A stretch of DNA of 26,466 nucleotides, from positions 1 to 26,466 of the IMG/VR virus record IMGVR_UViG_3300027788_000066; one strand, written 5' to 3'. Source of the stretch: a virus. Of the stretch, positions 336-22,764 are shown piece by piece. Both the position numbers and the translations under genes were made by a program. The notes beneath the pieces are model-generated. The model was not told where the DNA came from. It worked only from the letters and a program-made list of their open reading frames with translations, and did no database searches. The number at the start of each line of letters is the position of its first letter. Within the stretch, counting starts at the first letter, position 1.

Positions 336-378
336 TGACACTAGCCTTATAAGGTATATAAGTAAGGGGCTAATGTCA
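336..378. promoter_or_regulatory. Imperfect inverted repeat upstream of first gene
   Basis: The arms tgacactagcc (336-346) and ggctaatgtca (368-378) pair at 10 of 11 positions around a 21-nt spacer. Inside lies a second perfect palindrome, ccttataagg (345-354). The element follows a run of eight T and ends 39 nt before the chosen start of the first gene, so an operator or a 5' untranslated hairpin is plausible. No standard promoter boxes are clear beside it. Confidence 0.4.
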
Positions 379-417
379 CGTTTTAATTTTTTTATATATT
401 ATGTAACTATATATCCT

Positions 418-660
418 ATGGGACAAAAGCTATCAGCTCAAGCAAGAAGAGATAAAGCGGCACGTGATCTAGCATTCGCTAAAACACCGGCTAGGAGAGC
501 TAAAAAAGCACATGCTCAACGTATGGCTAGAAAGAATCCCAGAGCGTCAGAGGGTATGGACTATGATCATAAAGATCAACAGTACGAATCTCCTTCTAAG
601 AATAGAGGAAATGACGGACAAGGAACTAAAAAAGAAAGTGGCAGTAGGTATGCTACTTAA
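418..660 (+). CDS. Small basic protein with SPSK motif, unknown function
   Basis: An 80-residue, highly charged protein with no membrane segment. The N-terminal half (residues 1-45) is a Lys/Arg/Ala-rich, probably helical stretch. The C-terminal half carries the sequence MDYDHKDQQYESPSKNRG, then a Gly/Lys tail ending SGSRYAT. The S58-P59-x-K61 word matches the motif found in the protein cluster at 3682-7714. The frame stays open upstream to an ATG at 373, but that would add a hydrophobic MSRFNFF leader and would place the coding region over the right arm of the inverted repeat. I therefore chose the ATG at 418, which follows tatatcct. I recall similar DYDH...NRGNxGxGTKKE sequences from marine Bacteroidota phages, without a known function. 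Confidence 0.6.
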   Translation: MGQKLSAQARRDKAARDLAFAKTPARRAKKAHAQRMARKNPRASEGMDYDHKDQQYESPSKNRGNDGQGTKKESGSRYAT

Positions 661-1416: not shown

Positions 1417-2985
1417 ATGAATTATAACAATGCTAGTAATATAGTAAAGGAGTTAACTTTCAATAAGAAGGCTAAATCCAAAATAATGAAGGGTGTAGAC
1501 AAGTTAGCAAGAGCCGTAGGCTCAACTCTTGGTGCATCTGGAAAATGTGTGATCTATGAAGATACCATGGGTCGACCGGTGATAACAAAAGATGGTGTAA
1601 CCGTTGCGGAAAGCGTAGTCTTAATGGACCCGGTCGAGAACATTGGTGCAACTTTGGTTAAAGAAGCTGCCTCCAAAACAGTAGAAGAAGCAGGTGACGG
1701 TACTACAACAGCTACCGTCCTTGCTCATTCTATTTTAACTAACTACCATGAGTACGATGGTTGGGAAAGTTTAAGAAATATAAAGAATGGTATAGATTAT
1801 TCTTTAGAAAAAGTACTAGAGTACCTAGAAAAAATAAAAATTCCCGCAGACGACAAGTTAATTAAGCATGTAGCTAAGATTTCTTGTAATAACGACGAAA
1901 CACTAGGTAACTTAATCGCTGAGGCTTACGAAAAAGTAGGTAAAAACGGCGTAGTTTTGATGGAAGGCTCGGAAGATGAGCAAACACACATCGAAATTGT
2001 TGATGGGGTTGAGCTTCACGGCTGTAAAATAAAATCTCCTCATCTATTAACAGATAAAGACAACCATAAGTCGGTACTAGAAGAGCCATACGTGCTAATC
2101 GTAGATTCTCCTGTGGAAAATGTACGCAAAATACAGACAATATTGGAATATATAATAAAAGGTGGTAAATCACTGCTTATTATAGCTGAATTAGAGCAAC
2201 AACCGTTTGCTACTTTGTTAATGAACAAGGTTAAAGGCAATATAAAGGTTAATATTATAGATCTACCAGGATTTGGGCCATCTAAAAGAGATACACTAGA
2301 AGATATAGCGCTATTAACAGGTGCTAAGGTCATAAGTGAAGAGCTTGGAGATGATATGGACATGATTAGTCCAGATGTTTTAGGTAGAGCTAAGAAAGCT
2401 GTTACAGATAAAAGATCTACAATACTTACTGTAGACAAAGATCCTAAACTATTAAAAGATAGGATTAAAACTGTAGAAAAGAAAATCAAAGAAACTAAAG
2501 ATAAGTATTGGAAAGGTCTTCATCAAAAAAGACTAGCTATGTTATCAGGTTTAGTTGGTATAATCAAAGTAGGTGCTTACTCTCAAGTAGAGCGCAAAGA
2601 AAAGATGGATAGAGTGGAAGATGCTTTGTATGCTACTAAAGCTGCTATCGAGGAAGGTATTGTACCAGGTGGTGGTATTGCTTTGTTAAACGCTGCAAGT
2701 ATGGTTGAAAACCACGGTGGAGCTGGAGAGTTAATATTACTAAGCGCAATACAAGCTCCTTTTGAAAAAGTATTAGAAAATGCTAATATGATGGAAAGAG
2801 TGTCTTGGGCAGAAGGTTGGGAAGAAGGAGAAGGTATAGATGTTACATGTGGTTGTACTAAGCATATGGTAACAGAAGGTATTGTCGATCCTCTTCTTGT
2901 AACTAAGTCAGCACTTAAATATGCAGTAAGTGTTGCTAAGACTATTATGTCTGCGGATTGTGTAATATCAAACGTAAGAGAATAA
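1417..2985 (+). CDS. groEL: Phage GroEL-type chaperonin
   Basis: A 522-residue group I chaperonin subunit, expected to form a ring that folds proteins using ATP together with a co-chaperonin. Family landmarks are in order: ITKDG with D59; the nucleotide loop [11 protein letters not shown] with D94; the hinge/apical region with LLIIAE (253-258); PGFG (284-287); the equatorial RVEDALYAT with D402, which aligns with the ATPase aspartate D398 of E. coli GroEL; GGG at 418-420; and GIVDP with D491, aligning with D495. The usual GPKGRNV segment is altered to GASGKCV. In the apical domain the substrate-contacting Tyr-Phe pair of E. coli (203-204) appears as His-Leu (209-210). The Gly-Gly-Met tail is absent. 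All ATP-handling aspartates are kept, so I expect activity, perhaps with changed client preference. The stop overlaps the next start by one base, and the next gene is the GroES partner. Confidence 0.95.
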
Positions 2986-3242
2986 TGAAAGCAATAAACT
3001 ACTACATAGTAATAGAAAAGATAAAAGAAGAACCAAGAGAGGTTGGTGGTCTTATTATCGCAGAAAGAACAGATACAGAAGTTAGATACAAAAAAGCTAA
3101 AGTAATAACAGTTGGTGACAAAGTACAGGGTGTTGTAGAAGATGATGTCATATTCTACGACAAACACGCAGGTCACGGTATTTCTTACAAAGAGAAAGTA
3201 TATACAGTTATTAACTTAGGGGACGTTGTTTTAGTCGAATGA
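2985..3242 (+). CDS. groES: Phage GroES-type co-chaperonin
   Basis: An 85-residue protein with the GroES barrel layout. It has an N-terminal strand (KAINYYIVIEKIKEE), a mobile-loop segment EVGGLIIAER (residues 19-28) matching the GGIVL loop by which GroES docks on GroEL, then AKVITVGDKV, a DDVIFYDKHAG stretch, and a C-terminal strand VINLGDVVLVE. It is slightly shorter than the cellular protein (about 97 residues). I chose the ATG at 2985, inside the TAATG overlap with the groEL stop. The frame extends to a TTG at 2958, but that only adds basic residues that the family lacks. The gene order, groEL before groES, is the reverse of the usual bacterial operon. It should cap the GroEL ring encoded next to it; compare T4 gp31, which replaces host GroES. 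Confidence 0.9.
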   Translation: MKAINYYIVIEKIKEEPREVGGLIIAERTDTEVRYKKAKVITVGDKVQGVVEDDVIFYDKHAGHGISYKEKVYTVINLGDVVLVE

Positions 3243-3681: not shown

Positions 3682-4092
3682 ATGGCATACAAAGGCTACA
3701 AAGGATGCGGACCAAAAAAGATAGGTGCATCGCCAATGAAACAAACAGTTGCACAAAATGATGCAAGAAGAGACGCAACAAGAGATAAAATAGCAAAATC
3801 TAGAGGAAAAGACTTAATTGGAAGTGATGCTAGGTTAGGAAAAGGATATGGTGTAATTGGAGCTATAAATGCAGGTGTCAAAAATTTTAGAGAAAATACA
3901 ATGACACCAGAAGGTAGAAGCAAGTTTGGGAAAAATATTGCAAAAGATGTAAGCAGACTTACTTCTGGTGTAAAAGACATGTTTAAGTCTACACACCAAC
4001 ACCATAGTGATAACAGATTTAAGAAGAAAAATACTTCTAAAGTTATAAATCAAGGAAAATCAAACGAAAAACTTAGAACAAAAATAAACTAA
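3682..4092 (+). CDS. Basic low-complexity protein with SPMK motif
   Basis: A 136-residue, Lys-rich protein beginning MAYKGYKGCGPKKIGASPMKQ, with the S17-P18-x-K20 word near the N terminus. The middle (about 45-105) looks helical and charged. The tail is histidine- and lysine-rich (THQHHSDNRFKKKN) and contains VINQGKSNEKLR, echoing the INQGDK word of the next protein. No enzymatic motif or membrane segment is visible. It is the first of eight consecutive genes whose products share the S-P-x-K-type motif. The start has the A/T leader gataattATGGC. Likely a minor virion or DNA-associated protein; the function is unknown. Confidence 0.6.
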   Translation: MAYKGYKGCGPKKIGASPMKQTVAQNDARRDATRDKIAKSRGKDLIGSDARLGKGYGVIGAINAGVKNFRENTMTPEGRSKFGKNIAKDVSRLTSGVKDMFKSTHQHHSDNRFKKKNTSKVINQGKSNEKLRTKIN

Positions 4093-4110
4093 CTTAATTA
4101 ACATAAAACA

Positions 4111-4659
4111 ATGGCTCACAACAAATCACCTTTCAAAATGGCGGGTAAATCCCCGTTAATGAAACAACTAATAGGTAAACAAAGTATGTTACCTGAAGGA
4201 TTACAGGCTGCTATAAAAGCCTCGCCAGCTAAAAAGTACGGACACTCACCAGCTAAGCAAGATGAAAAACCTTCTCCAGCTAAAGAAATAAATAAATTAA
4301 GCGCAAGAACTATTAACCAGGGAGATAAAGCAGAAGCTGCTTATGAATCAGGTGATACTAAGAAAGGAAACAAGCATACAGCTAGAGCAGCTCGTATGGA
4401 CGCTAGAAACATGAAGAAGATAAGTAAGTTTAATGAAAAACCTTCTCCAGCAAAACAAGTTAGAGTTAAAGACTTACCTAAAAAAGCTGTTGATTTAGGG
4501 GAAGACATACTTGAAGGAGGTAAAAAGTTTATTAAATCAATAGGTAATATTAAATTATCAAGTAAAGCAAGAGAAGATTGTAAAAAAGCAGGCGGTAAGT
4601 ACTCAAGAAAAAAAGGATGCTTAATGCCAGTAAAACAAGAAGCAAAATCATCAAAATAA
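4111..4659 (+). CDS. Basic protein with six S-P motifs
   Basis: A 182-residue, strongly basic and probably largely unstructured protein. S-P words occur at residues 6-7, 14-15, 38-39, 46-47, 55-56 and 112-113; four of them are exactly SPAK, and the first is KSPFKM. Between them lies INQGDKAEAAYESGDTKKGN (68-87) and a helical Ala/Arg-rich stretch to about 100. The C terminus has a paired-cysteine unit, EDCKKAGGKYSRKKGC (155-170). The repeated motif inside one chain shows it is a functional unit rather than a chance word. The stop overlaps the next start (TAATG). Candidate roles are binding packaged DNA, capsid targeting or docking to another virion protein. None is proven by the sequence. Confidence 0.65.
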   Translation: MAHNKSPFKMAGKSPLMKQLIGKQSMLPEGLQAAIKASPAKKYGHSPAKQDEKPSPAKEINKLSARTINQGDKAEAAYESGDTKKGNKHTARAARMDARNMKKISKFNEKPSPAKQVRVKDLPKKAVDLGEDILEGGKKFIKSIGNIKLSSKAREDCKKAGGKYSRKKGCLMPVKQEAKSSK

Positions 4660-4889
4660 TGGGAACAAAAGGAATAACAAACATGCCTATAACGGCAATC
4701 GTTCAAAAAGGCAAGAAAAAACTATTTGAAGGAGGAGACAAACAGAACATTGAGGTAGAAGGATCACCAGTTGTATCTGCAGCAGGTAATAGACCTATTG
4801 AAACAAAACCTGAGTCTTACTTATTTAATAACTCACCTAAGTCTCCTGTAGACGGTTCAGGTGGAGGAAGCAAAAAGGGTGGAAAATAG
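4659..4889 (+). CDS. Small S-P-motif protein, unknown function
   Basis: A 76-residue protein starting MGTKGITNMPITAIVQKGKK at the ATG inside the TAATG overlap. A longer frame opens upstream at 4617, but it would overlap the previous gene by 43 nt. S-P words occur at 36-37 (EGSPVV), 59-60 and 62-63 (NNSPKSPVDG). The chain ends in a Gly/Ser/Lys linker (SGGGSKKGGK). There is no recognisable domain. It may be an adaptor or a flexible virion component. Its 3' end overlaps the 5' end of the next gene by about 29 nt if that gene starts at its GTG. Confidence 0.55.
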   Translation: MGTKGITNMPITAIVQKGKKKLFEGGDKQNIEVEGSPVVSAAGNRPIETKPESYLFNNSPKSPVDGSGGGSKKGGK

Positions 4890-5199
4890 AGTAAGCCCTA
4901 TAACACAAAATGCCAAATCTAGACCTATAATAAAAAAGGATCTAGAACCTGGCATAATGGCTGAGGCTAACAAAGACGGTAGTACTTACGTAAGTAAGGA
5001 TGCTAGTCCTGCTCAGATGAAAGACGCTATAGATCATGAGGAAGTTCACCACAAACAAATGGAAAGAGGTGATCTTGATTATGATGATGATAACGTAATT
5101 TGGAAAGGTAAAAAATTCTCAAGAGCTAAAATGAATGAAGGGGCACAAAAACTACCCTGGGAGGCTGAAGCTTATAAGAAAACAAAAAAATCGAAATAA
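4861..5199 (+). CDS. Putative small zinc metallopeptidase (HExxH) with S-P motifs
   Basis: A 112-residue protein containing H59-E60-E61-V62-H63, the zinc-binding and catalytic HExxH signature, on a likely helix (DAIDHEEVHHKQMERGD). Some 38 residues downstream, PWEAEAY offers glutamates (E101 or E103) that could be the third zinc ligand, as in gluzincin-type peptidases. Upstream are GIMAEANKDGSTYVSKDASP (31-50) and an S-P at 12-13. No signal peptide. The start is unsure: GTG at 4861 gives the full chain but overlaps the previous gene by 29 nt, while the first ATG in frame is at 4957 (residue 33). I keep the GTG because the sequence before residue 33 has the same style as its neighbours. It could process virion proteins, act in cell-wall entry, or be an inactive relative. 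Confidence 0.55.
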   Translation: MEEAKRVENRVSPITQNAKSRPIIKKDLEPGIMAEANKDGSTYVSKDASPAQMKDAIDHEEVHHKQMERGDLDYDDDNVIWKGKKFSRAKMNEGAQKLPWEAEAYKKTKKSK

Positions 5200-5690
5200 T
5201 GGCATTTAAGTTAAAATTAAAACAAGTTCAACTAAGCGGTAGTAAAGCTAGTCCTTTTAAGATCAATGAATCTTTAGTGGCTGGAGCAGGAATAGCAGCA
5301 AAAGGCTTTTCAACTGATTTAGGAGGAGCAAGTAGAGCTATGGCAAAACCAGTTCAAGTTGGTGGTGGTGATGAAGGTAGTGGTAGTGATACTGCAACAG
5401 CTGCTCAAACCTCACAAAAATGTGAAGATAGAGATTTAACTGGCGACGCATTAGCTAAATGTCAAGAATTAACTAACACAAAGTTTTTAACCGAAACCGC
5501 TGCACAAGAGAAAGCGATAGCAGATGCAAAATTAAAAAAAGACACTGCTACAAAAGCTAGTAATGACAAGCAAGATGCTTATTGTTTAAGAAATCCAAAT
5601 AAAAAAGCATGTAAAAATCACACGCCTCAAGGTAAAACTGAAGATGTTGCTGATGTCGACACGACTCCAGCTCCTCTTCCAACAGAATAA
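5199..5690 (+). CDS. S-P-motif protein with cysteine pairs
   Basis: A 163-residue protein opening MAFKLKLKQVQLSGSKASPF, with K at 21, so the S18-P19-F-K word sits close to the N terminus. An Ala/Gly-rich stretch (26-70) follows. Then come CEDRDLTGDALAKC (cysteines 13 residues apart), a long charged helix, and CLRNPNKKAC (cysteines nine apart), before an acidic Thr/Pro tail. The MAFK opening recurs in the next gene. The ATG overlaps the preceding stop (TAATGG), indicating coupled translation. No enzyme motif is evident. A structural or packaged virion protein is likely. Confidence 0.6.
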   Translation: MAFKLKLKQVQLSGSKASPFKINESLVAGAGIAAKGFSTDLGGASRAMAKPVQVGGGDEGSGSDTATAAQTSQKCEDRDLTGDALAKCQELTNTKFLTETAAQEKAIADAKLKKDTATKASNDKQDAYCLRNPNKKACKNHTPQGKTEDVADVDTTPAPLPTE

Positions 5691-5704
5691 TTAACATATA
5701 AACT

Positions 5705-6934
5705 ATGGCATTTAAAATGAAAAGGGCTGGAATGAGCCTAAGATCCAGTACCAACATACAACCTCAGTTAACAAACGTTGAGAGAAGCGGAGGTATGCAA
5801 GAAGCAAGTCCTTTTAAACAACAAACAGACGCTAAATTTAATAGAACATTAAATACCGACGGGTCTATTAAGATTGATAAAAACGAGGAAGGTGAAACAA
5901 CACTTACGCCTAAAGTTCATACCGGTATAGGTGCTTGTGATAAACTTAAAAAAGGAGATAATCTTGCCCCTAACTCGGCGGCATGTCTAAAATATAAGAA
6001 GTCTGCAAAGAAATGCGAAGGCTTGTCTCAAGAAGAATTAATGGATCCAGCCAACGACTGTACTGGCCATGCGATGGATGAGACTACAACACCTGACGTT
6101 TTAGACGAAGCTTCCGGAATTGTTCAAGGCCCAGGAGGTACAACACCTAGAACAAACATACTTACGCCTAGAGAAATGAGACGTAATATGAGAATGAGAA
6201 GATTTGCTTCAGATGGTAGTGAGCGTTTAAAGAAGAAAGCAAACAGAAATATAAGACAAGCTATTAGAAGAGGAGAATCGCCAGACCAAGGTGATTTAGA
6301 TATACTTTCTGGAGAAGATTTAGGTAACTTAGATGGTATAAACATCATGCAAGATTCTACAGGTACTACGAATTTATTTACAAAACAACAAACCTCTGCG
6401 TTCCAACAGAATCCAGGTGGCGAGACAATTGACCCTCAAGTTTACCAAAAAGAATTAGATGCTCAATTAACCTTAATAGAACAAGGAGATGTAGAGTATG
6501 ATGATATGGAGGCAACAATGAAAGCGGCTGAGGCAGCTACTCAAGCAAGTCTTGGAGTTGGTTCAAAAGGTCAAAGTGGTGTTGAGCAAGGTCAGTACTT
6601 GACCAACAGAACAAGAAGAACCATGAGAAGAAACAATGCTGACATGGAAGATGCTGGTGTGAATAAAAATGATAAGGTAAGCGAGAGAAAAAGAGATTCA
6701 AACAAAAGAAAAGTAACAAAATACAAAGACAAGCTAAAAGGATCTGTAGATGCTGAAGGGAATTACGTAAAGAAAGAAGGTGGTATATCTAAAAAGAAAT
6801 ACGACAGATTAAAAAGAAAAGCTAAAGACAAAGGTGGTAATGTTAGTGCTTTTAAGAAAAAAGGATCACCTATGCATATGACCGTGAACGTAACAAAACC
6901 ATCTTACAAAATGGGTGGATTTGGATCTAAGTAA
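5705..6934 (+). CDS. Large basic S-P-motif protein, unknown function
   Basis: A 409-residue protein, the largest of the S-P cluster. It opens MAFKMKRAGM and carries EASPFKQQ (S35-P36) near the start and GSPMHM (S388-P389) near the end, so motifs bracket the chain. Between them are a Cys-containing section (about 78-120), a strongly basic Arg/Lys/Met stretch around 155-190 (REMRRNMRMRRFASDG), an acidic and Gln-rich middle, and a second basic block (about 300-385). No signal peptide, membrane segment or catalytic motif. The basic blocks would suit contact with DNA or with an acidic scaffold. It ends 2 nt before the next gene. Confidence 0.6.
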   Translation: MAFKMKRAGMSLRSSTNIQPQLTNVERSGGMQEASPFKQQTDAKFNRTLNTDGSIKIDKNEEGETTLTPKVHTGIGACDKLKKGDNLAPNSAACLKYKKSAKKCEGLSQEELMDPANDCTGHAMDETTTPDVLDEASGIVQGPGGTTPRTNILTPREMRRNMRMRRFASDGSERLKKKANRNIRQAIRRGESPDQGDLDILSGEDLGNLDGINIMQDSTGTTNLFTKQQTSAFQQNPGGETIDPQVYQKELDAQLTLIEQGDVEYDDMEATMKAAEAATQASLGVGSKGQSGVEQGQYLTNRTRRTMRRNNADMEDAGVNKNDKVSERKRDSNKRKVTKYKDKLKGSVDAEGNYVKKEGGISKKKYDRLKRKAKDKGGNVSAFKKKGSPMHMTVNVTKPSYKMGGFGSK

Positions 6935-6936
6935 TT

Positions 6937-7383
6937 ATGCCATTTAAACTACCGAATAAAAACATAAGAGCAGCAATATCTACAACTGGCTATAAATCTA
7001 ATAGTCCAGATGTAGATAATGATGTAAACGTTATACCTAGTAATAAAATTACTATGAAAGGCGTAGACTTCCCTGTTAAGGGTGTTGGCAGTAATGGTGT
7101 TACTAAGAAGATGAAACCTGGAGAAAACTATGATTTTGGTGATGCTGATTATGTGGTTGAAACGCCTCTTAAAAGAACTAAGCCTTATAAAGCAGGTATG
7201 AGTGCTTCTGAGAGAAAAGCTTATAACAATAAAACAGGTGGTAACGTTCAAGCTCCTCAACCAGGTGGAGGATCACGTAAGAAGTCTTACTGTGCTAGAT
7301 CCGCTGGTATTAAGAAATGCAAGAACCCAGATAAAAATGGCGACTGTCCTAATGACATAGCTAGAAGAAATTGGAAATGTTAG
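6937..7383 (+). CDS. Small protein with cysteine-rich C-terminal module
   Basis: A 148-residue protein with a MPFKL opening and an S23-P24 word. Residues about 32-76 (VIPSNKITMKGVDFPVKGV, then KKMKPGENYDFGDADYVVE) form a beta-rich unit that I recall from many marine phage minor proteins. A Lys/Gly linker follows. The C-terminal 32 residues form a compact four-cysteine unit: SYCARSAGIKKCK, then GDCPNDIARRNWKC. The SYCARSAG...W-C pattern also recurs in marine phage proteins, as I remember, with no assigned function. It could bind a metal or be disulphide-linked after release. Start: aagtaattATGCC, 2 nt after the previous stop. Confidence 0.6.
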   Translation: MPFKLPNKNIRAAISTTGYKSNSPDVDNDVNVIPSNKITMKGVDFPVKGVGSNGVTKKMKPGENYDFGDADYVVETPLKRTKPYKAGMSASERKAYNNKTGGNVQAPQPGGGSRKKSYCARSAGIKKCKNPDKNGDCPNDIARRNWKC

Positions 7384-7393
7384 TATATATATT

Positions 7394-7714
7394 ATGACTT
7401 GGATAAAAAAACACTTAAAAGTATCTGTGCCATCTCCGCTAAAACAAGACGAGAAGAAAAACGAAGTTAACCTAAGAGCTAACAGGAACACTCAAAAAAG
7501 TGAAACTGACGCGGGTAAATCTACTTCAAGCCTTAGTGGTGGAATAGACTATAATAGAGGTAATTTAAATTTAAATGCTTCTGGTGATACGAATAAAAAC
7601 TATAACGTTGGACTACGCTTGTCTAATAAGAAGGGAAATGTATCTGGAGGTGTTAACTATAACACGGGACAATTCGGTAGTAACATAGGTGGTAATCTTA
7701 AAATAAAGTTTTAA
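7394..7714 (+). CDS. S-P-motif protein with beta-repeat C terminus
   Basis: A 106-residue protein. The N terminus, MTWIKKHLKVSVPSPLKQDE, holds the last clear S-P-x-K word of the cluster (S14-P15-L-K17). From about residue 48 to the end the chain alternates polar and apolar residues in four or five strand-length units rich in Gly and Asn (GGIDYNRGNLNLNASGD, YNVGLRLSNKKGN, GGVNYNTGQFG). This resembles outer-membrane beta-hairpins or small fibre strands. No signal peptide is visible. Only one base separates its stop from the start of the holin-like gene. Function unknown. Confidence 0.55.
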   Translation: MTWIKKHLKVSVPSPLKQDEKKNEVNLRANRNTQKSETDAGKSTSSLSGGIDYNRGNLNLNASGDTNKNYNVGLRLSNKKGNVSGGVNYNTGQFGSNIGGNLKIKF

Positions 7715-7715
7715 T

Positions 7716-8165
7716 ATGCCTAAAAAGAAATTTAGTGAAACAAAGGTCGGAGCATTTTTATCAAAAGTAGCTCCAGGTATATTAGGAACCGTGGGTGACA
7801 TACTACCTGATAACGGTTTATTTGGTGTTGTAAAAAATCTTATTTCAAAAGACGAAACAATGCCAGCTGAAGATAAAGAAAAAGCTTTAAAGCTATTAGA
7901 ACAAGATATGGTTGAAATGCAAGAGATAAGTAAGCGCTGGGCCAGCGACATGAAAAGCGATTCATGGTTAAGTAAAAATACACGCCCACTTACACTAATA
8001 TTTTTAACTGTATCTATGGTATTATTAATATTCTCTGATAGCATAGGTGATTCTTTTGATGTTGATTCAGGTTGGGTTGACTTATTGAAATCATTACTAA
8101 TAACGGTTTACGTAGCTTACTTTGGTTCTCGTGGTGCTGAAAAATTCAAGAAAATATCTAAATAA
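7716..8165 (+). CDS. Holin-like membrane protein (GTA holin 3TM type)
   Basis: A 149-residue protein with a soluble N-terminal half and two hydrophobic helices: TRPLTLIFLTVSMVLLIFS (about 89-107) and WVDLLKSLLITVYVAYFGS (about 120-138), followed by a short basic tail. The segment ISKRWASDMKSDSWLSKNTR before the first helix is what I remember of the GTA_holin_3TM family (Pfam PF11351), found in many phages. The expected role is timed permeabilisation of the inner membrane to release the lysin. No endolysin is visible in this window, so the partner enzyme would be elsewhere. The stop overlaps the next start (TAATGG). Confidence is good for a membrane protein, moderate for holin. Confidence 0.7.
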   Translation: MPKKKFSETKVGAFLSKVAPGILGTVGDILPDNGLFGVVKNLISKDETMPAEDKEKALKLLEQDMVEMQEISKRWASDMKSDSWLSKNTRPLTLIFLTVSMVLLIFSDSIGDSFDVDSGWVDLLKSLLITVYVAYFGSRGAEKFKKISK

Positions 8166-12673: not shown

Positions 12674-14125
12674 ATGGCAAATATAAATGATAACATAAGA
12701 GGCAAGAAGCTATTTAAACAAGGATCGACTGGGGCTAGAGCCTCTAAAGGTAGCGATGGAGAGTTTACTGTTTCAAAAGAAATATCTGATGATCTTAATG
12801 CTCTTACGGATATTAGCGATATATTTAATGACGATGGTTTATATCAAATAAATAGATATTTAATAAAACAATTAGAAGATGTTAGAGCTGACGTAGAAGA
12901 ATTACACGCGTTTATAAAAGACGCTTTTGGTAGTGATTCATCTTCAGCTGCTTCAAGAGGAGGTACTGGTGCAAAAGGTGATACTGGTTCTACTGGTGGC
13001 AAAGGTAACAAAGGTGATACAGGTTCAGCAGGTTCTAATGGATCTAATGGATTAAAAGGTAATACTGGAGCAGCAGGTAGTGCAGGAGCAGCCGGTCCTC
13101 AAGGACTTAAGGGTAATACTGGATCTGGAGGTTCAAATGGTGCTAAGGGTGACCAAGGAATACAGGGCATCCAAGGTGAAGAGGGTGATGAGGGTAGTGA
13201 TGGAGATAGAGGTCCTCGAGGTTCTACAGGTTCTACAGGAACTAAAGGAGACCAAGGAATACAAGGTAATACAGGAAGTACCGGGTCACAAGGACCTAAG
13301 GGAGACGCTGGTGCAACAGGAGGCGTTGGTCCAAAAGGTAGCACAGGTTCTGCGGGATCTGACGGAGACGATGGGGCTAAAGGTGATAAAGGTTCCACTG
13401 GATCACAAGGCGCAAAAGGTGATACTGGATCGCAAGGAATACAAGGAATACAAGGTCCAGCTGGGGCTAAGGGTAGTACAGGATCAACTGGGGCTAAAGG
13501 AGATGCTGGTGACGCAGGTGGAACAGGACCAGCTGGAGCAAAAGGCGCTACAGGTAGTGCTGGAAGCAATGGATCAAATGGTGGAAAAGGCGACAAAGGT
13601 GATACCGGAGCTGCTGGCTCTGCTGGTGGTAAAGGAGATAAGGGTGACACCGGGTCAGCCGGATCCGCGGGTGGTAAAGGAGATACTGGTTCAGCAGGAC
13701 CAACGGGGCCAAAAGGTAGTACGGGTTCAACCGGTGCCGCTGGAAGTAATGGCTCAAACGGTGGTGCTGGTGCTAAAGGTAGTACAGGTTCAGCAGGACC
13801 AACAGGGCCAGCTGGCGCAAAGGGTGACACTGGTAACGCTGGAAGTAACGGATCAAATGGATCAGCTGGAGCTAAAGGTGCCACTGGGTCAACGGGTCCA
13901 CAAGGAGGCACAGGAGCAACAGGACCGCAAGGACCTGCTGGAGCCGCTGGTGCTGCTGGAGCTGCAGGAGCGAAAGGAAATACTGGATCACAAGGATCAA
14001 CTGGACCACAAGGAGCAACCGGTGCAGCGGGTAGTGATGCCTCAGTAAGCGGTGCAACAGCTAGCTTTGCTGTAGGTAAAGTAACGTATACATTTAAAAA
14101 CGGGTTGCTAACAACCGCTAAGTAA
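12674..14125 (+). CDS. Collagen-like virion protein
   Basis: A 483-residue protein in three parts. Residues 1-95 form a non-repetitive head that includes a likely coiled coil (INRYLIKQLEDVRADVEELH, 59-78), well placed to trimerise the chain. Residues 96-455 are 120 consecutive Gly-X-Y triplets with no interruption, dominated by GST, GAK, GDK/GDT, GSA, GSN and GIQ. The last 28 residues (TASFAVGKVTYTFKNGLLTT) form a short beta cap that may nucleate folding. Proline is scarce in the triplets and Thr, Ser and Lys abundant, as in bacterial and phage collagen-like proteins that lack hydroxyproline. It is expected to be a rod-like tail or head appendage. It begins 2 nt after the preceding fibre gene. 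The large overlapping frames in this stretch are by-products of GGN-rich codons. Confidence 0.9.
   Translation: MANINDNIRGKKLFKQGSTGARASKGSDGEFTVSKEISDDLNALTDISDIFNDDGLYQINRYLIKQLEDVRADVEELHAFIKDAFGSDSSSAASRGGTGAKGDTGSTGGKGNKGDTGSAGSNGSNGLKGNTGAAGSAGAAGPQGLKGNTGSGGSNGAKGDQGIQGIQGEEGDEGSDGDRGPRGSTGSTGTKGDQGIQGNTGSTGSQGPKGDAGATGGVGPKGSTGSAGSDGDDGAKGDKGSTGSQGAKGDTGSQGIQGIQGPAGAKGSTGSTGAKGDAGDAGGTGPAGAKGATGSAGSNGSNGGKGDKGDTGAAGSAGGKGDKGDTGSAGSAGGKGDTGSAGPTGPKGSTGSTGAAGSNGSNGGAGAKGSTGSAGPTGPAGAKGDTGNAGSNGSNGSAGAKGATGSTGPQGGTGATGPQGPAGAAGAAGAAGAKGNTGSQGSTGPQGATGAAGSDASVSGATASFAVGKVTYTFKNGLLTTAK
12959..14038 (+). repeat. 120 Gly-X-Y codon triplets
   Basis: A 1080-nt region with a GGN codon every nine bases, encoding the collagen-like rod. 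Glycine is mostly GGT and GGA. Imperfect longer units recur, such as GSNGSNGGKGDKGD and GSAGPTGP, showing growth by local duplication. This is the most GC-rich coding stretch of the window. Confidence 0.9.
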
Positions 14126-15233: not shown

Positions 15234-15462
15234 AGCAGTTGAGGAACTTATCAAAGTAGCTAAAGAAGCTATTGTAGATTCAGGAGATGATATAACAGCT
15301 GATAGACTTAAGAATGCTGCTGCAACAAAAAAACTAGCTATATTCGATGCTTTTGAAATATTGAATAGAATACAGGACGAAGAAGATATGTTAAACAATA
15401 AAACTAAAGAGGTTGTTGAAGAAACATCTTTTGGTGGATTTGCTGAAAGAAGATCTAAGTAA
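15187..15462 (+). CDS. Putative terminase small subunit
   Basis: A 91-residue helical protein: MNIKETKKSIIQAGHKAVEE, then LIKVAKEAIVDSGDDITADRLKNAAATKK and LAIFDAFEILNRIQDEEDML, ending in an FGGFAERRSK tail. The ADRLKNAAATKK...FDAFEIL stretch is what I recall of short proteins encoded directly before large terminase genes in marine phages. Here too the large terminase starts inside its stop codon (TAATG). A small subunit recognises the phage DNA and hands it to the motor. The frame opens at an ATG at 15169 as well. I chose 15187 because it follows an AATTAAAT leader and gives the smaller overlap with the previous gene. Confidence 0.55.
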   Translation: MNIKETKKSIIQAGHKAVEELIKVAKEAIVDSGDDITADRLKNAAATKKLAIFDAFEILNRIQDEEDMLNNKTKEVVEETSFGGFAERRSK

Positions 15463-17675
15463 TGTACAAGCAAACTTTATTTAAGGTTGTAGAACCTATA
15501 AAAATAAATACCATAAAAAGACTTAATAAGTCTAAAAAATGGAAATATGGTTATAACAAAGAACATGACGTTGTTGTTATAAGCAAGACGGGTGAAATAG
15601 GTGAGATATATGAAATACAAAATTTTAAAATAGCTTTACCTAAATTAACAAGCCCTCATAAGTTTAGTGAAAATAAATGGGAAGTAACTGAGTATCCTAA
15701 AGAACTTAAAAGAATAAAAACAATATTTGATTGGAAGAATTATCCAGATGATTTCAAGAAAAAATATATAGACTACATAGAAAATGAGTTCAAAAAAAGA
15801 GATGAAGGTTTTTGGTACATTAACAAAGGTGTTCCTACTTACATTACTGGCACTCATTACATGTACCTGCAGTGGTCCAAGATTGATGTTGGGCAACCAG
15901 ACTTTAGAGAAGCAAATAGATTATTCTACATATTCTGGGAAGCTTGCAAAGCAGATACAAGATGTTACGGAATGTGCTACCTTAAAAACAGACGTTCAGG
16001 ATTCTCTTTTATGGCTTCTGGAGAAACAGTCAACCAAGCCACAATATCATCTGATGCTAGATTTGGTATCTTATCAAAGTCAGGACCAGATGCTAAAAAA
16101 ATGTTTACCGACAAGGTTGTACCAATATCCATCAACTACCCTTTCTTTTTCAAACCAATACAAGACGGTATGGACCGTCCAAAAACAGAACTTGCCTATA
16201 GAGTACCTGCGAGTAAACTTACAAGACGAAGTATTGTTAGCTCTGAAAAACCAGAAGAATTAGAAGGTCTTGATACAACTATAGATTGGAAAAACACAGG
16301 TGACAACAGTTACGATGGTGAAAAACTAAAGCTCTTAGTGCATGATGAGTCAGGTAAGTGGGAAAGACCTAATAATATATTAAACAACTGGAGAGTCACA
16401 AAAACAACATTAAGATTAGGTTCTAGGATTATAGGTAAATGTATGATGGGATCAACATCAAACGCCTTAGATAAAGGTGGTGATAATTTTAAGAAACTAT
16501 ACAGAAACTCAGATGTTACAAAAAGAAACCGCAATGGACAGACTAGCTCAGGATTATATAGTTTGTTCATACCTATGGAATGGAACTACGAAGGATTCAT
16601 TGACTCTAATGGCATACCTGTATTCGACACACCCGAGCAAGAAAGTTTTGGACCGCATGGTGAATCTATAAACAGTGGCATATTAGAGCACTGGCAAAAT
16701 GAAGTTGATGGTTTAAAAGAAGATGGAGATGCTTTAAACGAGTTCTACAGACAATTTCCTAGAACAGAAGAACACGCGTTTAGGGACGAAACTAAAAACA
16801 GTATATTTAATTTAGCAAAAATATACGAACAAATAGATTTTAACGAGGATCTTAATAATGATTCTCAAGTAACAGTTGGTAGCTTTCAATGGGTTAATGG
16901 TATAAAAGATTCAACAGTAATGTTTTATCCAAATCCAGCTGGTAGATTTAAAATTAGCTGGGTACCACCTGGAAATAGGCAAAACGCTAGTATAGTTAAA
17001 AATGGTATGAGATACCCAGGCAACGAACACATGGGTGCTTTTGGTTGTGATAGTTATGACATATCAGGAACTGTTGATGGTAAAGGTTCTAACGGAGCTT
17101 TACACGGGTTAACAAAGTTTAGTATGGAAGATTGTCCACCAAACCAATTTTTTTTAGAATACGTAGCAAGACCACAAACCGCTGAGATATTCTTTGAAGA
17201 TGTTTTAATGGCTTTAGTTTTTTACGGTATGCCATTATTAGCTGAAAACAATAAGCCTCGTTTATTATATTATTTAAGAAGACGTGGATATAGAGGTTAC
17301 TCAATGAATAGGCCTGATAGAATTTGGAATAAATTATCAGTTGCTGAAAAAGAAGTAGGTGGAATACCAAACTCAAGTGAAGATATTAAGCAAGCACACG
17401 CTGCTGCTATTGAAATGTATATACAAGATCATGTTGGAATGAAGTCTGATAATACATATGGAACATGTTATTTTAACGAAACGTTGCAAGACTGGGCAAA
17501 GTTTGACATTAATAATCGTACAAAGTTTGATGCGGCTATTAGTTCAGGTTTAGCTGTTATGGCTTGTAACAGACATTTGTACAGAGCAAACCCAATTATG
17601 AAAAAAGAAAAATTAAACTTAAGCATAGCTAAATACGGACAATCCGGTATGCAATCAAAACTAATAGAAAATTAA
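15462..17675 (+). CDS. terL: Terminase large subunit
   Basis: A 737-residue DNA-packaging motor protein: an ATPase followed by a nuclease. The phosphate-binding loop is K175-N-R-R-S-G-F-S182, with the lysine at the front and Phe where the standard loop has Lys. This matches the deviant loop of phage lambda gpA (KSARVGYSK). The Walker B strand is LKLLVHDE, with D295-E296. A coupling motif MMGSTSN (328-334) follows. In the C-terminal nuclease, GAFGCDSYD (D530) and AEIFFEDVL (E579-D580) supply likely metal-binding acids. The length is on the long side for the family because of an N-terminal extension of about 110 residues (DVVVISKTGEIGEIYEIQNF and following). The gene is coupled to the putative small subunit by TAATG and ends 1 nt before the portal start. 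The family call is firm; exact nuclease residues need alignment. Confidence 0.85.
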   Translation: MYKQTLFKVVEPIKINTIKRLNKSKKWKYGYNKEHDVVVISKTGEIGEIYEIQNFKIALPKLTSPHKFSENKWEVTEYPKELKRIKTIFDWKNYPDDFKKKYIDYIENEFKKRDEGFWYINKGVPTYITGTHYMYLQWSKIDVGQPDFREANRLFYIFWEACKADTRCYGMCYLKNRRSGFSFMASGETVNQATISSDARFGILSKSGPDAKKMFTDKVVPISINYPFFFKPIQDGMDRPKTELAYRVPASKLTRRSIVSSEKPEELEGLDTTIDWKNTGDNSYDGEKLKLLVHDESGKWERPNNILNNWRVTKTTLRLGSRIIGKCMMGSTSNALDKGGDNFKKLYRNSDVTKRNRNGQTSSGLYSLFIPMEWNYEGFIDSNGIPVFDTPEQESFGPHGESINSGILEHWQNEVDGLKEDGDALNEFYRQFPRTEEHAFRDETKNSIFNLAKIYEQIDFNEDLNNDSQVTVGSFQWVNGIKDSTVMFYPNPAGRFKISWVPPGNRQNASIVKNGMRYPGNEHMGAFGCDSYDISGTVDGKGSNGALHGLTKFSMEDCPPNQFFLEYVARPQTAEIFFEDVLMALVFYGMPLLAENNKPRLLYYLRRRGYRGYSMNRPDRIWNKLSVAEKEVGGIPNSSEDIKQAHAAAIEMYIQDHVGMKSDNTYGTCYFNETLQDWAKFDINNRTKFDAAISSGLAVMACNRHLYRANPIMKKEKLNLSIAKYGQSGMQSKLIEN

Positions 17676-17676
17676 T

Positions 17677-20100
17677 ATGGCTGAGTCAGTTGTAAAAGGT
17701 TATTTTCCGAGTCAAGTTGTACCTGACGCAGAGAAATTAAGTGCTGAGTATGGATTACAAGTAGGTAAGGCCATTGAGTACGAGTGGTTTGATGGATCTA
17801 CGTCTAATCAAAGATACAATCAGCACCAAGCTGAGTTTCATAAACTAAGGCTTTATGCTAGAGGTGAACAACCTATTCAAAAATACAAAGATGAATTATC
17901 TGTAAACGGTGACTTAAGCTACTTAAACTTAGATTGGAAACCAGTACCTGTTGTTCCTAAATTTGTAGATATAGTAGTTAACGGTATATCAGAAAGATCA
18001 TTTGATATAAAATGTTACTCTCAAGATCCTTACGGTATAAGTAAGAGAACAAAGTACATGGAATCTATAATGAGAGACATGCAGACACAAGAGTTAAGTG
18101 CTTTTGCACAAGAAGCTTTTGGCATTGCATTATTTGAAAACGCTCCAGACAAACTACCTGACAGTCAAGAAGAGTTAGATCTTCATATGCAATTAAGTTA
18201 CAAGCAAGGTATAGAGTTAGCTGAAGAGCAAGCTATAAACGTATTGCTTAAAGGTAACAGATATGATCTAACAAAAAGAAGAGTTAACTACGATCTAGCT
18301 ACAATAGGTATAGGCTGCGTGAAAAATACTTTTACACAATCAGAAGGAGTTAAAGTTGAATATGTGGATCCAGCTAATATAGTTTATTCTTATACAGAAG
18401 ATCCAGACTTTCAAGATATATATTACGTAGGTGAAATAAAAACAATACCTATAAACGAACTTAAAAAAGAATTTCCAAATCTAACTGATGAGGATTTAAA
18501 ATCTATACAAAGTCAAAGCATACATCAGAATAGTTACTCTAGCAATAGATACAACTCTTCTTATTACGACGATAAAAACCAGATTCAAGTTTTATATTTT
18601 AACTACAAAACCTATATGAACGAGGTTTACAAGGTTAAAGAAACTTCAACTGGTGCAGAAAAAATAATACTAAGAGACGATACATTTGATCCACCTATAA
18701 ATGAAATGACAGGTAACTTTGGTAAAATATCAAGGTCATTAGAAGTTTTATATGAAGGTTGTTTAATTTTAGGAACAGACTACTTATTAAAGTGGGAGTT
18801 AGCTAAAAACATGATGAGACCTAAAAGCGACTATAGTAAAGTTAAAATGAACTACGCTATTAATGCTCCTAGAATGTATAAGGGTAGAATTGATTCATTA
18901 GTAAAACGTATAACAGGTTTTGCTGACATGATACAGTTGACTCATTTAAAACTACAACAAGTAATGTCTAGAATGGTACCAGACGGTGTTTATTTAGACG
19001 CTGATGGTTTAGCTGAGGTTGATTTAGGCAATGGAACTAATTATAATCCACAAGAAGCGTTAAATATGTTCTTTCAGACGGGATCTATAATAGGTAGATC
19101 TTTTACTTCTGAAGGAGACATGAACCCAGGTAAAGTACCTATTCAAGAAATACAATCAGGATCTGGTGGTCAAAAAATACAAACTTTAATAACCAACTAC
19201 AACTATTACATGCAAATGATAAGAGATGTAACTGGTTTAAACGAAGCTAGAGATGGTAGCACTCCTGATAGTAGAGCGTTAGTTGGGGTTCAAAAGCTAG
19301 CTGCTGCTAACTCAAACACGGCTACTAGACATATATTAAATTCTGGTTTAGCTTTGACACAAGAGCTTGCGGAAGGTTTGTCTCTTAGAATATCTGATAT
19401 ATTAGAGTTTTCACCAACAAAAGAAGCTTTTATACAAAAAATAGGTAATCAAAATGTTGGAGTGCTAGAAGATATAGCTAAATTACATTTACATGATTTT
19501 GGAATATTCATAGAGCTTACTCCTGATGAAGAACAAAAAGCTATATTAGAACAAAACATACAAGTTGCTATAGCTCAAGGATTAATTGATCTAGAAGATG
19601 CTATTGATCTTAGAGAGTTAAAAAATATAAAACTTGCAAATCAACTGTTAAAAATACGTAGAAAGAAAAAGCAAGAAAGAGAGCAGAAGATGCAACAAGA
19701 AAATATGCAGGCTCAAGCACAGGCAAATGCACAAGCTCAACAAGTTGCAGCTCAAGCTGAGGTTCAAAAAGCTCAACAACTGTTTCAAATAGAAACACAG
19801 ATGGAGCAAATGAAAGGTGAAATAGCTAATCAAAAAATGCAAACAGAAGCAATGCTAAAGAAAGAGTTAATGGCATTGGAGTTTCAGTTTAACATGGAAT
19901 TAAAAAATGCTGAGGTTGATAATGCTAAGGGAAAAGAACAATACAAAGAAGATCGTAAAGACGAGAGAACAAAAATACAGGCTAGTCAACAAAGTGAGTT
20001 GATAAACCAAAGACAGAACGACGCGCCACCAAAGAAATTTGAGTCATCTGGAAATGATAATATGAGTGGTTTTGACTTAGGTTCGTTTGGACCTATGTAA
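17677..20100 (+). CDS. Portal protein
   Basis: An 807-residue protein, expected to form the dodecameric DNA gateway at one vertex of the head. Early residues include YNQHQAEFHKLRLYARGEQP and NLDWKPVPVVPKFVDIVVNG, a familiar portal opening. A Tyr-rich beta region (VEYVDPANIVYSYTEDPDFQ) forms the clip and wing area. The diagnostic stem words are RDVTGLNEARDGSTPDSRAL, then GVQKLAAANSNTATRHI (around 514-550). From about residue 659 to 760 there is a long Gln/Glu/Ala/Lys helix (KKKQEREQKMQQENMQAQAQ) like the helical barrel extension seen in podovirus portals. It lies immediately after the terminase, the usual order. Confidence 0.88.
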   Translation: MAESVVKGYFPSQVVPDAEKLSAEYGLQVGKAIEYEWFDGSTSNQRYNQHQAEFHKLRLYARGEQPIQKYKDELSVNGDLSYLNLDWKPVPVVPKFVDIVVNGISERSFDIKCYSQDPYGISKRTKYMESIMRDMQTQELSAFAQEAFGIALFENAPDKLPDSQEELDLHMQLSYKQGIELAEEQAINVLLKGNRYDLTKRRVNYDLATIGIGCVKNTFTQSEGVKVEYVDPANIVYSYTEDPDFQDIYYVGEIKTIPINELKKEFPNLTDEDLKSIQSQSIHQNSYSSNRYNSSYYDDKNQIQVLYFNYKTYMNEVYKVKETSTGAEKIILRDDTFDPPINEMTGNFGKISRSLEVLYEGCLILGTDYLLKWELAKNMMRPKSDYSKVKMNYAINAPRMYKGRIDSLVKRITGFADMIQLTHLKLQQVMSRMVPDGVYLDADGLAEVDLGNGTNYNPQEALNMFFQTGSIIGRSFTSEGDMNPGKVPIQEIQSGSGGQKIQTLITNYNYYMQMIRDVTGLNEARDGSTPDSRALVGVQKLAAANSNTATRHILNSGLALTQELAEGLSLRISDILEFSPTKEAFIQKIGNQNVGVLEDIAKLHLHDFGIFIELTPDEEQKAILEQNIQVAIAQGLIDLEDAIDLRELKNIKLANQLLKIRRKKKQEREQKMQQENMQAQAQANAQAQQVAAQAEVQKAQQLFQIETQMEQMKGEIANQKMQTEAMLKKELMALEFQFNMELKNAEVDNAKGKEQYKEDRKDERTKIQASQQSELINQRQNDAPPKKFESSGNDNMSGFDLGSFGPM

Positions 20101-20129: not shown

Positions 20130-21278
20130 ATGGCTAAAGAAGAAAAAGTAGTCGAAGAGGTAGTGGAAGAAATAACTCCGCAGGCTCAAGAGACTGAAAA
20201 AGGTGATCTAGTACCTGAAGTTACTGTCAAAGAAGATGGTACACATAAAATAGATTTTGACAAATTAGTAACTAAGCCAGAAAAAGGCAAGGTTGCTGAA
20301 GAAGTTAAAGAAGAAGTAAAGGTTGAAGAACCTGTAGCTGTTATTGAAGAAGAGGTTGCTCCTAAAGAGCCTACTGTTTTAGAAGAAATAACAGAAGAAG
20401 AGGTTGTTGAGAAAGCTGAGGAGATTGCAGAAGCAGTTGTTGAAGCTCAAGAAACTGGAAAACCTTTACCAGAAAACATTCAAAAAGTTGTAGACTTTAT
20501 AGATGAGACTGGTGGAAGTTTAGAAGACTATGTTAAACTTAACCAAGACGTGGATGCTTTAAATGAAGATCAATTGCTAGTTGAGTATTATCAAAACACA
20601 AGACCTCATTTAGATCCATCGGAGATAAACTTTTTGATAGAAGATAAGTTTTCTATTGAAGAAGATACTGAAGATGAAAGAGATATTAAAAGAAAAAAAT
20701 TAGCTAGAAAAGAAGAATTAGCATACGCTAAAAATCATCTTAATAGCTTAAAAGATAAATACTATGAAGAAATCAAAGGCGGCTCTAGGTTAGCTCCTGA
20801 GCAAAAAAAGGCTGTAGATTTTTTCAACAGATATAATAAAAATCAAGAGGTTGCTGAAAAGCAAACTCAAACTTTCAACAATAAAACTAACCAAGTTTTT
20901 AATGACGAATTCAAAGGTTTTGAATATAAAGTCGGAGACAAGAGGTATAGGTTTAATGTTAAAAACCCGAATGAGGTTAAAGATACACAAGGTAACATCA
21001 ATAATTTTGTTAAGAAGTTTCTTAATAAAAACAATGAGATGGAAGACGCTGCGGGTTATCACAAATCTTTATTCACCGCAATGAATCCCGATGCAATTGC
21101 AAACCATTTTTACGAACAAGGAAAGTCTGATGCTATGAGACAGAGTATTTCTCAAACAAAAAACATTAGTATGGATCCTAGAAAAGCTCAAGGAGAAGCA
21201 CCTAAATCAGGTACTACTTACAGAGCTGTCGATGCAGATGGTTCATCTTTTAAGTGGGGTTTCAAAAAAAATAAATAA
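20130..21278 (+). CDS. Putative capsid scaffold protein
   Basis: A 382-residue protein. The first 110 residues are extremely acidic and Glu/Val-rich (VVEEVVEEITPQAQETEKGD, VKEEVKVEEPVAVIEEEVAP). The middle is helical and charged (ERDIKRKKLARKEELAYAKN), and the C terminus is basic and aromatic (SSFKWGFKKNK). An acidic helical body with a short basic end, encoded between portal and major capsid protein, is the standard picture of a phage scaffold, whose basic tip contacts capsid subunits during assembly. No protease domain is fused to it. The start follows ttttataatattttattATGGC. Confidence 0.75.
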   Translation: MAKEEKVVEEVVEEITPQAQETEKGDLVPEVTVKEDGTHKIDFDKLVTKPEKGKVAEEVKEEVKVEEPVAVIEEEVAPKEPTVLEEITEEEVVEKAEEIAEAVVEAQETGKPLPENIQKVVDFIDETGGSLEDYVKLNQDVDALNEDQLLVEYYQNTRPHLDPSEINFLIEDKFSIEEDTEDERDIKRKKLARKEELAYAKNHLNSLKDKYYEEIKGGSRLAPEQKKAVDFFNRYNKNQEVAEKQTQTFNNKTNQVFNDEFKGFEYKVGDKRYRFNVKNPNEVKDTQGNINNFVKKFLNKNNEMEDAAGYHKSLFTAMNPDAIANHFYEQGKSDAMRQSISQTKNISMDPRKAQGEAPKSGTTYRAVDADGSSFKWGFKKNK

Positions 21279-21303: not shown

Positions 21304-22764
21304 ATGGCTTTAGCTGGAACTGGCGCTGAGTTATCACATGTGGTACCTCGCCCAAACAAACTTGCATTTGACAATAACTATTTGTCAATTGCTGATAATG
21401 ATTTTAACTTTGCTAAGCAATTCTTACCAGAAGTTTACGAGAAAGAAGTAGAAAGATACGGTAACCGTACTATCTCTGGTTTCTTAAGAATGGTTGGTGC
21501 TGAAATGCCAATGGCTTCTGATCAAGTAGTTTGGTCTGAACAAGGTAGAATTCACGTAGCATCTAATAACGCTACAATCGCAAACACAAACGCAACAAGC
21601 GATACAATTACACTAGTTGCTGATCCCGTTGGAAATGGTGACGGATTAACTGCTGCTCAACAATGGGCGTTATATTCTGTAGGTGACACTTTAGTTGTTT
21701 CTCAAGGGAATTTAACTGTAAAAGCAAGAGTACAAAGCAAACCTGCTGGAACTGTTACTTTAGTAGTATCTGCTTACGATTTTGCTGGTATTGTACTAGG
21801 TGGTGCTAATGATGCTGGATTTTCTGCTGCTGCAGTAAAACTATTCATCTTTGGTTCTGAATACGGAAAAGGAACAGACAACGCGTCTCAACAATCTGTA
21901 GATTCTCCATTCACTAAATTTGATAACAAACCTATCATTATGAAAGGTAAGTATGAAATTAGTGGATCTGATACTGCACAAATTGGATGGGTTGAAGTTG
22001 CTACTGAAGCTGGTGCTTCTGGGTACCTTTGGTATTTAAAATCTGAAAGTGAAACTAGAATTAGATTTGAAGATAAATTAGAGATGGCAATGATTGAAGC
22101 TGAAAAAGCTGTTGCTGCATCTGGATTATCTGCTACTTTTACTGGATCTGAAGGATTATTTGCTGCTATTGAATCAAGAGGATTAGTATATAACAATCAA
22201 GGATTTGCTAACGCTTGCGTTGGTGGTGGAATTGATGAGTTTGATGCTATCTTACAAGAGCTTGATAAGCAAGGAGCTATCGAAGAGAACATGATGTTCT
22301 TAGATAGATCTACTGCTTTAAGCATTGATAAAATGTTAGCTAATCAAAATTCTTACGGAGCTGGTGGTACATCTTACGGTGTATTTGACAATTCTGAGGA
22401 TATGGCTTTAAATTTAGGTTTCTCTGGATTTAGACGTGGATCTTACGATTTCTACAAGTCTGACTGGAAATACTTAAACGATGCTACTACTCGTGGATTA
22501 ATAGCTGACGTAGAAGGTGTTATTGTACCAGCTGGTACTTCAACAGTATATGACCAATCAATGGGGAAAAATATTTCAAGACCATTCTTACACATCCGTT
22601 ACAGAGCTTCTGAAGCAGATGATAGAAAAATGAAATCTTGGATTACAGGATCTGTTGGTGGAAGTTATACTTCTGACTTAGATAGCATGACTGTAAACTT
22701 CTTATCAGAAAGATGTTTATGTGTACAAGCTGCTAACAACTTCGTATTATTGAAAAAATCATAA
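21304..22764 (+). CDS. Major capsid protein
   Basis: A 486-residue protein opening MALAGTGAELSHVVPRPNKL, then FDNNYLSIADNDFNFAKQFL and a WSEQGRIHV strand. It has a long Ala/Glu helix region (EDKLEMAMIEAEKAVAASGL, about 258-277) and a C-terminal TVNFLSERCLCVQAANNFVL. Size, position after the scaffold and the composition fit the HK97-fold shell protein. Codon use differs clearly from its neighbours: I count one ATA among about 24 Ile codons, and several CGT/CGC Arg codons, whereas the portal gene uses mostly ATA and AGA. This is a sign of selection for very high expression. A strong terminator-like hairpin follows 18 nt after the stop. Confidence 0.85.
   Translation: MALAGTGAELSHVVPRPNKLAFDNNYLSIADNDFNFAKQFLPEVYEKEVERYGNRTISGFLRMVGAEMPMASDQVVWSEQGRIHVASNNATIANTNATSDTITLVADPVGNGDGLTAAQQWALYSVGDTLVVSQGNLTVKARVQSKPAGTVTLVVSAYDFAGIVLGGANDAGFSAAAVKLFIFGSEYGKGTDNASQQSVDSPFTKFDNKPIIMKGKYEISGSDTAQIGWVEVATEAGASGYLWYLKSESETRIRFEDKLEMAMIEAEKAVAASGLSATFTGSEGLFAAIESRGLVYNNQGFANACVGGGIDEFDAILQELDKQGAIEENMMFLDRSTALSIDKMLANQNSYGAGGTSYGVFDNSEDMALNLGFSGFRRGSYDFYKSDWKYLNDATTRGLIADVEGVIVPAGTSTVYDQSMGKNISRPFLHIRYRASEADDRKMKSWITGSVGGSYTSDLDSMTVNFLSERCLCVQAANNFVLLKKS

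Follow-up and report, generated by a model that had tools for sequence, protein, structure and literature searches.

Why should eight consecutive small proteins of one phage, otherwise unrelated in sequence, carry the same short S-P-x-K word? The question was raised by an initial annotation of the window, by which we mean the whole 26,466-base linear IMG/VR virus record IMGVR_UViG_3300027788_000066. Its genes run in the order GroEL, GroES, a 146-aa protein, eight small proteins, holin, fibres, terminase, portal, an acidic protein at the scaffold position, and capsid. Its terminase has matches in Bacteroidota phages: Manatee Spring podovirus (63%), Elemovirus (44%), and Cellulophaga phi18:3 and phi38:1 (about 36%). 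The features referred to below, all on the plus strand, are as follows.

373..660, +, small basic protein of the phi40:1 gp080 family; no tag in the window copy, tag in some relatives (RRSPFAKQ, KGSPIKLK)
1417..2985, +, GroEL encoded by the phage, on the upstream side of the cohort and kept throughout the lineage
2985..3242, +, phage-encoded GroES-like protein, adjoining GroEL, upstream of the cohort
3682..4092, +, first of the small basic proteins, 136 aa, tagged GASPMKQ; SPMK encoded at 3730-3741 (motif scan)
4111..4659, +, small basic protein 2, 182 aa, orthologues in relatives L004 and L283; motif sites SPFK 4126-4137, SPLMK 4150-4164, SPAK 4222-4233, 4246-4257, 4273-4284 and 4444-4455
4659..4889, +, small protein 3, 76 aa from ATG 4659; SP present, SPxK absent
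4861..5199, +, small protein resembling zinc peptidases, 112 aa counted from GTG; SPITQ 4894-4908 (tag position), HEEVH 5035-5049, third-ligand candidate E101 (PWE)
5199..5690, +, small protein 5, 163 aa, MAFKLK opening, KASPFK; SPFK 5250-5261
5705..6934, +, protein 6, 409 aa, MAFKMK opening, EASPFKQ; SPFK 5807-5818
6937..7383, +, protein 7, 148 aa, MPFKL opening; TPLK 7162-7173; C-terminal half is DUF6321
7394..7714, +, small protein 8, 106 aa, PSPLKQ; SPLK 7433-7444
7716..8165, +, holin-like protein bordering the cohort on its downstream side (phrog_3427, 8e-20)
15462..17675, +, terminase large subunit, lineage marker
17677..20100, +, portal protein, P22-like by homology
20130..21278, +, acidic protein at the scaffold position
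21304..22764, +, major capsid protein position

The GroEL/GroES pair (1417-3242) lies directly upstream of the cohort and is kept in the near-complete genomes of the lineage. Among the fibre genes, positions 12674-14125 encode a collagen-like protein of Gly-x-x repeats, with 43% GC against about 35% around it.

The annotation had all eight cohort proteins sharing the motif. S-P does occur at least once in each of them, but strict SPxK is found in only five: as SPMK at residue 17 of the 3682 protein, SPFK at residue 18 of the 5199 protein, SPFK at residue 35 of the 5705 protein, SPLK at residue 14 of the 7394 protein, and in the 4111 protein as SPFK followed by four SPAK. Six copies had been counted in the last of these, of which five are strict and the sixth reads SPLMK. 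Elsewhere, the 6937 protein has TPLK (residue 76), the 4861 protein SPITQ (12) and SPAQMK (49), and the 4659 protein only SPVV, SPKS and SPVD; a good motif is missing from two of the eight. The MAFK-type opening, described as frequent, is present as a MAF/MPF/MAY-K start in four of the eight.

Composition-preserving shuffles showed how far this exceeds chance. SP[AFILMV]K was observed 9 times in the eight proteins (3682-7714) versus 0.18 expected, and none of 20,000 shuffles reached 9; the figures for SPxK were 9 versus 0.66 (0/20,000). Leaving out the repetitive 4111 protein, SP[AFILMV]K was still observed 4 times versus 0.12 expected (0/20,000). The other 24 window proteins had none, with 0.38 expected. 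Since these proteins are free of the motif, high lysine content does not explain its presence in the cohort, and composition as a cause was ruled out by the shuffles together with the K-rich proteins outside the cohort. The annotation is partly confirmed: strict SPxK is in fewer proteins than stated, but, joined with the lineage-wide survey below, the counts show that the enrichment is real and larger than first noted.

The motif also persisted in homologues from two syntenic relatives, L004 and L283, whose bodies are 29-89% identical to those of the window. The 4111 orthologues kept the N-terminal SPFK, SPLMK and SPAK, and the 5199 protein kept ASPFKINE in both relatives while its remainder diverged to 41-44%. 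SPLKQ was retained in L004, from which the 3682 protein is absent. In orthologues of the 5705 protein the motif shifts position, EASPFKQ becoming GSPLRQ or SSPFHQ, and the L283 homologue of the 4861 protein has RNSPFKKK at the place of RVSPITQ in the window.

How widely is the tag spread? We scanned the collection with a DNA pattern in which SP[hydrophobic]xK comes at most 30 bases after MAFKMK, and 69 viral DNA stretches matched; an earlier, stricter DNA pattern had given no matches. About 50 of the 69 were short open frames with the tag at the start and unrelated continuations. A permuted control pattern matched 42 stretches, but mostly in MAFKMK proteins of the same cohort (e.g., MAFKMKGPSLY); because these matches (MAFKMK-PS...) are largely variants of the tag family, the control is unclean and the collection scan yields no chance rate. 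The terminase lineage of the window was present on 48 of 50 tested contigs (both scans, with L004), at 65-88% identity, mostly 75-80%. Bacterial and archaeal genomes totalling 257 Gb gave a single match to the pattern, on a contig of the same terminase lineage: the 63,395-base contig 28 of a Sphingobacteriales MAG (L298-L299), with terminase at 78% and GroEL at 60%. The binning of this phage contig in a Sphingobacteriales MAG weakly suggests that the lineage infects Bacteroidota. In addition to this 63 kb contig, a second contig has a terminase at 74%, again weak evidence on the host.

Isolates of the phage collection contained no tag, the lone Klebsiella match being spurious (E about 2), and no isolate homologues were found for the 5705 protein or for a tagged 4111-like protein. 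Literature searches returned nothing on MAFKMK, or on SPKK with phage. The tag is real and lineage-specific, and apparently undescribed in the literature searched. Some genomes carry only two or three tagged proteins. The window terminase has at least 600 relatives in IMG/VR, and the lineage consists of very abundant, uncultured marine podoviruses. Two proteins of genome G050, at 13622 (97 aa) and 24799 (93 aa), were present in 10 of 10 near-complete genomes, whereas a search of four isolate regions found neither; they are possibly lineage-specific partners of the tag.

Within the lineage, the motif was concentrated in one position and one genomic region. In loci chosen solely by their terminase, small genes upstream of terminase had 45 N-terminal SP-hydrophobic-K/R sites versus 6.0 expected (0/200 shuffles), numbers that are approximate because the gene caller was simple and the loci were partly redundant. 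Genes downstream of terminase in the same loci showed no enrichment (1 versus 2.4 expected), nor did minus-strand early genes of tag-selected genomes (1 versus 2.8). The bodies behind the tag were diverse: 105 tagged proteins fell into 53 clusters, 41 of them singletons. Within one phage lineage, late proteins with nothing else in common share one peptide, and the suggestion of the annotation that they have one common partner is well supported. The motif and its tie to one terminase lineage are established irrespective of mechanism.

Several of the bodies are modules known elsewhere, namely DUF6321, a DUF5872-like WPSAYASG module and CWKGY. These three form separate tagged proteins here and are fused within one cyanomyovirus protein, T4 GC0119 (S-SM1, L116; S-P4, L117). 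The S-P4 copy is annotated as structural; as a 2010 cyanophage comparison labelled T4-GC119 hypothetical, that label may be annotation only, and the link to the virion is weak.

Homology to virion proteins was found for three body families. In Cellulophaga phage phi4:1, the N-terminal half of the 6937 protein recurs as a domain of gp040, whose record gives experimental MS/MS, and the 6937 protein matches phrog_36695, a virion structural protein, at 1e-12. Its predicted structure was unusable (pLDDT 41), and neither this protein nor phi17:2 gp41 had a match when searched by sequence against the PDB. A tagged protein of genome G017 is homologous (2e-12, single comparison) to phi40:1 gp080, an untagged 101-aa basic protein annotated as structural from MS/MS, as are phi40:1 gp069 and gp077; the untagged window protein at 373-660 has weaker homology to gp080 than the G017 protein. 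The third family comprises 28 proteins encoded downstream of terminase and preceding two large proteins, a likeness to T7 gp14, gp15 and gp16 in gene order alone. When compared with the MS/MS virion proteins elemo gp20, phi18:3 gp120 and phi38:1 gp99, this family gave an hhalign probability of 95.8% (E 6.7e-9), with controls at most 0.2%. Homology and gene order agree in placing the tagged proteins of 200-300 aa, which occur in relatives of the window, among podoviral gp14-position virion proteins.

Some gp14-position proteins open with the tag (SPFKSK...SPVKQ in G046, ESPMKK in G043), and the G046 protein also matches phrog_6121, a virion structural protein. Among the genes running from terminase up to the giant protein, the tag was carried by 4 of 22 gp14-like proteins versus 4 of 270 others (p = 0.0014, a value resting on four proteins). 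Packaging does not in general require the motif, because it is missing from most gp14-like proteins and phi40:1 gp080 is a virion protein without it; with virion proteins among untagged relatives, the tag cannot be the sole packaging route.

The annotation had offered three roles: a capsid-targeting tag, DNA contact or a maturation cleavage site. The first fits best, given the N-terminal motif, the unrelated and exchangeable bodies, the three body families with MS/MS-annotated virion relatives, and the motif on some putative ejection proteins; the other two fit less well. The chance seems about even that the SPxK-type tag is an N-terminal short linear motif recruiting variable basic cargo into the virion.

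Could the motif have no virion role and instead recruit a partner in the cytoplasm, be it the adjoining phage GroEL/GroES, some host factor, or a system that governs degradation or stability? The cohort does flank phage GroEL/GroES in mapped genomes, and late small proteins can be host-takeover factors. We consider this unlikely, however: three body families have virion homologues, putative ejection proteins carry tags, and in Elemovirus and the Manatee Spring phage, which have GroEL, the late genes checked include no tagged cohort.

A DNA-contact element resembling histone H1 tails, which would bind the AT-rich minor groove and make the proteins DNA-condensing or chromatin-like in virion or cell, is rather improbable. 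Tagged proteins (median 106 aa) are indeed basic, with 22.6% K+R versus 13.7%, the SPAK repeats of the 4111 protein and its orthologues are compatible with such contact, and K stands at position +2 in 107 of 282 N-terminal SP sites. SPKK elements have basic residues after SP and lie in tandem in basic tails, whereas the residue following SP in these 282 sites was hydrophobic in 207 (73%) and basic in 14 (5%), so histone-like contact fits less well. Moreover, a single copy close to the N terminus is the rule (73 of 87 tagged proteins), and the GC content of the window (32-43%) is not extreme.

Proteolytic maturation, in which an N-terminal leader would be removed by cleavage at SPxK or close by as the head matures, the zinc-peptidase-like protein of the cohort being a possible agent, is quite improbable. 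In its favour, the small peptidase-like protein (HExxH) is a cohort member in most loci with the region covered, and in T4 the targeting sequence is cleaved off the internal proteins (PMC7697877). In the 4861 protein, E60, H63, W100 and E101 are invariant across 21 homologues and H59 nearly so; a few homologues, among them those of L215 and L283 with EExxH, have lost an intact HExxH, which argues against a cleavage role. Homologues mostly start M[AGSP]F/YKL, and with this MAFKL-type opening the peptidase-like protein itself looks like cargo. In its predicted structure a disordered tag region precedes a folded core, a point in favour of the cargo-tag reading. A fold search gave minigluzincins (selecase, abylysin) as the best PDB matches, none below E 0.001, and a sequence profile compared with MJ1213 gave E 0.57. 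The frame at 4861-5199 has no clear ATG start; it runs from GTG 4861 or later and overlaps the preceding gene. As to other proteases, S78 prohead protease (PF04586) had no match in 10 genomes with a positive control, making classical maturation cleavage less likely; S77 (PF03420) had none in the same number of genomes, but its control matched nowhere either, so that search is uninformative. The motif is also found in tandem copies and in the middle of proteins, and this repetition inside some proteins, together with the S78 result, is why cleavage fits less well.

Very improbable, finally, is recurrence with no peptide function, arising from recent duplication or from DNA shared for recombination or as signals for starting translation: AT-rich codons in MAFK openings and the sometimes similar starts of neighbouring genes would suit it, but the opening is missing from the major capsid protein, portal and terminase, the distance from opening to SP varies, and codon entropy in the tag equals that of the rest of the genome (S, 2.22 versus 2.20 bits; P, 1.51 versus 1.48 bits), so that DNA-level conservation is disfavoured and, the S and P codons varying freely, the conserved entity is the peptide.

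Returning to the capsid-targeting tag, we infer how it could serve in packaging, partner binding, ejection and payload. The word SP[F/L/M/A/I]xK, usually about 20 residues or less from the start and often behind a MAFKMK-type opening, would mark virion cargo. Late in infection a common assembly partner would bind the unrelated small basic tagged proteins; candidates are the portal, the ejection-protein complex or the scaffold, the acidic protein at the scaffold position (20130..21278) being a speculative partner of the basic tags. Tagged proteins would then enter the head before or with the DNA, short and basic as would be expected of DNA-associated internal proteins. Their bodies would be a variable payload, delivered or DNA-associated, differing between related phages. 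More tentatively, and at somewhat less than an even chance, these marine, probably Bacteroidota-infecting podoviruses use a compact, modular, sometimes multivalent SP-hydrophobic-K tag to load fast-changing small proteins, including the zinc-peptidase-like one, into particles that deliver them along with the genome; such a cargo code would have arisen separately from that of T4. Should the packaging reading hold, a sequence rule would become available for spotting virion cargo among small phage genes that cannot otherwise be interpreted. Proteins so marked would be candidates for injection into the host, to take it over or to counter its defences, and the tag could be a tool for loading proteins into phage heads.

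How does the tag compare with known systems? Its putative cargo has possible or partial counterparts. Minigluzincins have an HExxH helix and a downstream Glu ligand in a fold of about 100 aa; the 4861 protein, with E60, H63 and E101 invariant and H59 nearly so, may be of this kind, the fold matches being non-significant. Cyanophage T4 GC0119 of S-SM1 and S-P4 contains the WPSAYASG, CWKGY and DUF6321 modules, but as a single large untagged protein rather than separate tagged ones. The histone H1-type S/TPXK (SPKK) element is the same short S-P-x-K word in basic chains, SPAK included; here, however, x is mostly hydrophobic (F/L/M/A/I) and there is usually one N-terminal copy. Phi40:1 gp069 and gp080 are likewise short and basic, with genes upstream of lysis genes and terminase, but unlike the lineage proteins have no SPxK tag. 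In crAss001, also a Bacteroidota phage, virus-encoded proteins are stored in head and tail for ejection, and C1 docks on the portal (PMC10172136). C1 (gp45) and C2 (gp46) are large proteins with docking domains, in place of many small proteins with a common short tag.

The closest parallel is with the T4 internal proteins IPI, IPII and IPIII, whose capsid-targeting sequence (CTS) is their sole conserved part and is able to bring foreign proteins into the capsid (PMC3012670, PMC7697877). As with the CTS, a short N-terminal peptide is common to diverse, fast-changing small proteins with unrelated bodies, their virion location being suggested here only by homologues. Unlike the CTS, the peptide is SP-hydrophobic-K, may be repeated or displaced and shows no sign of removal, the virion is of podovirus type, and S78 protease was not detected. 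Without implying relatedness to the T4 CTS, the analogy suggests that the tag would work like the known T4-type targeting.
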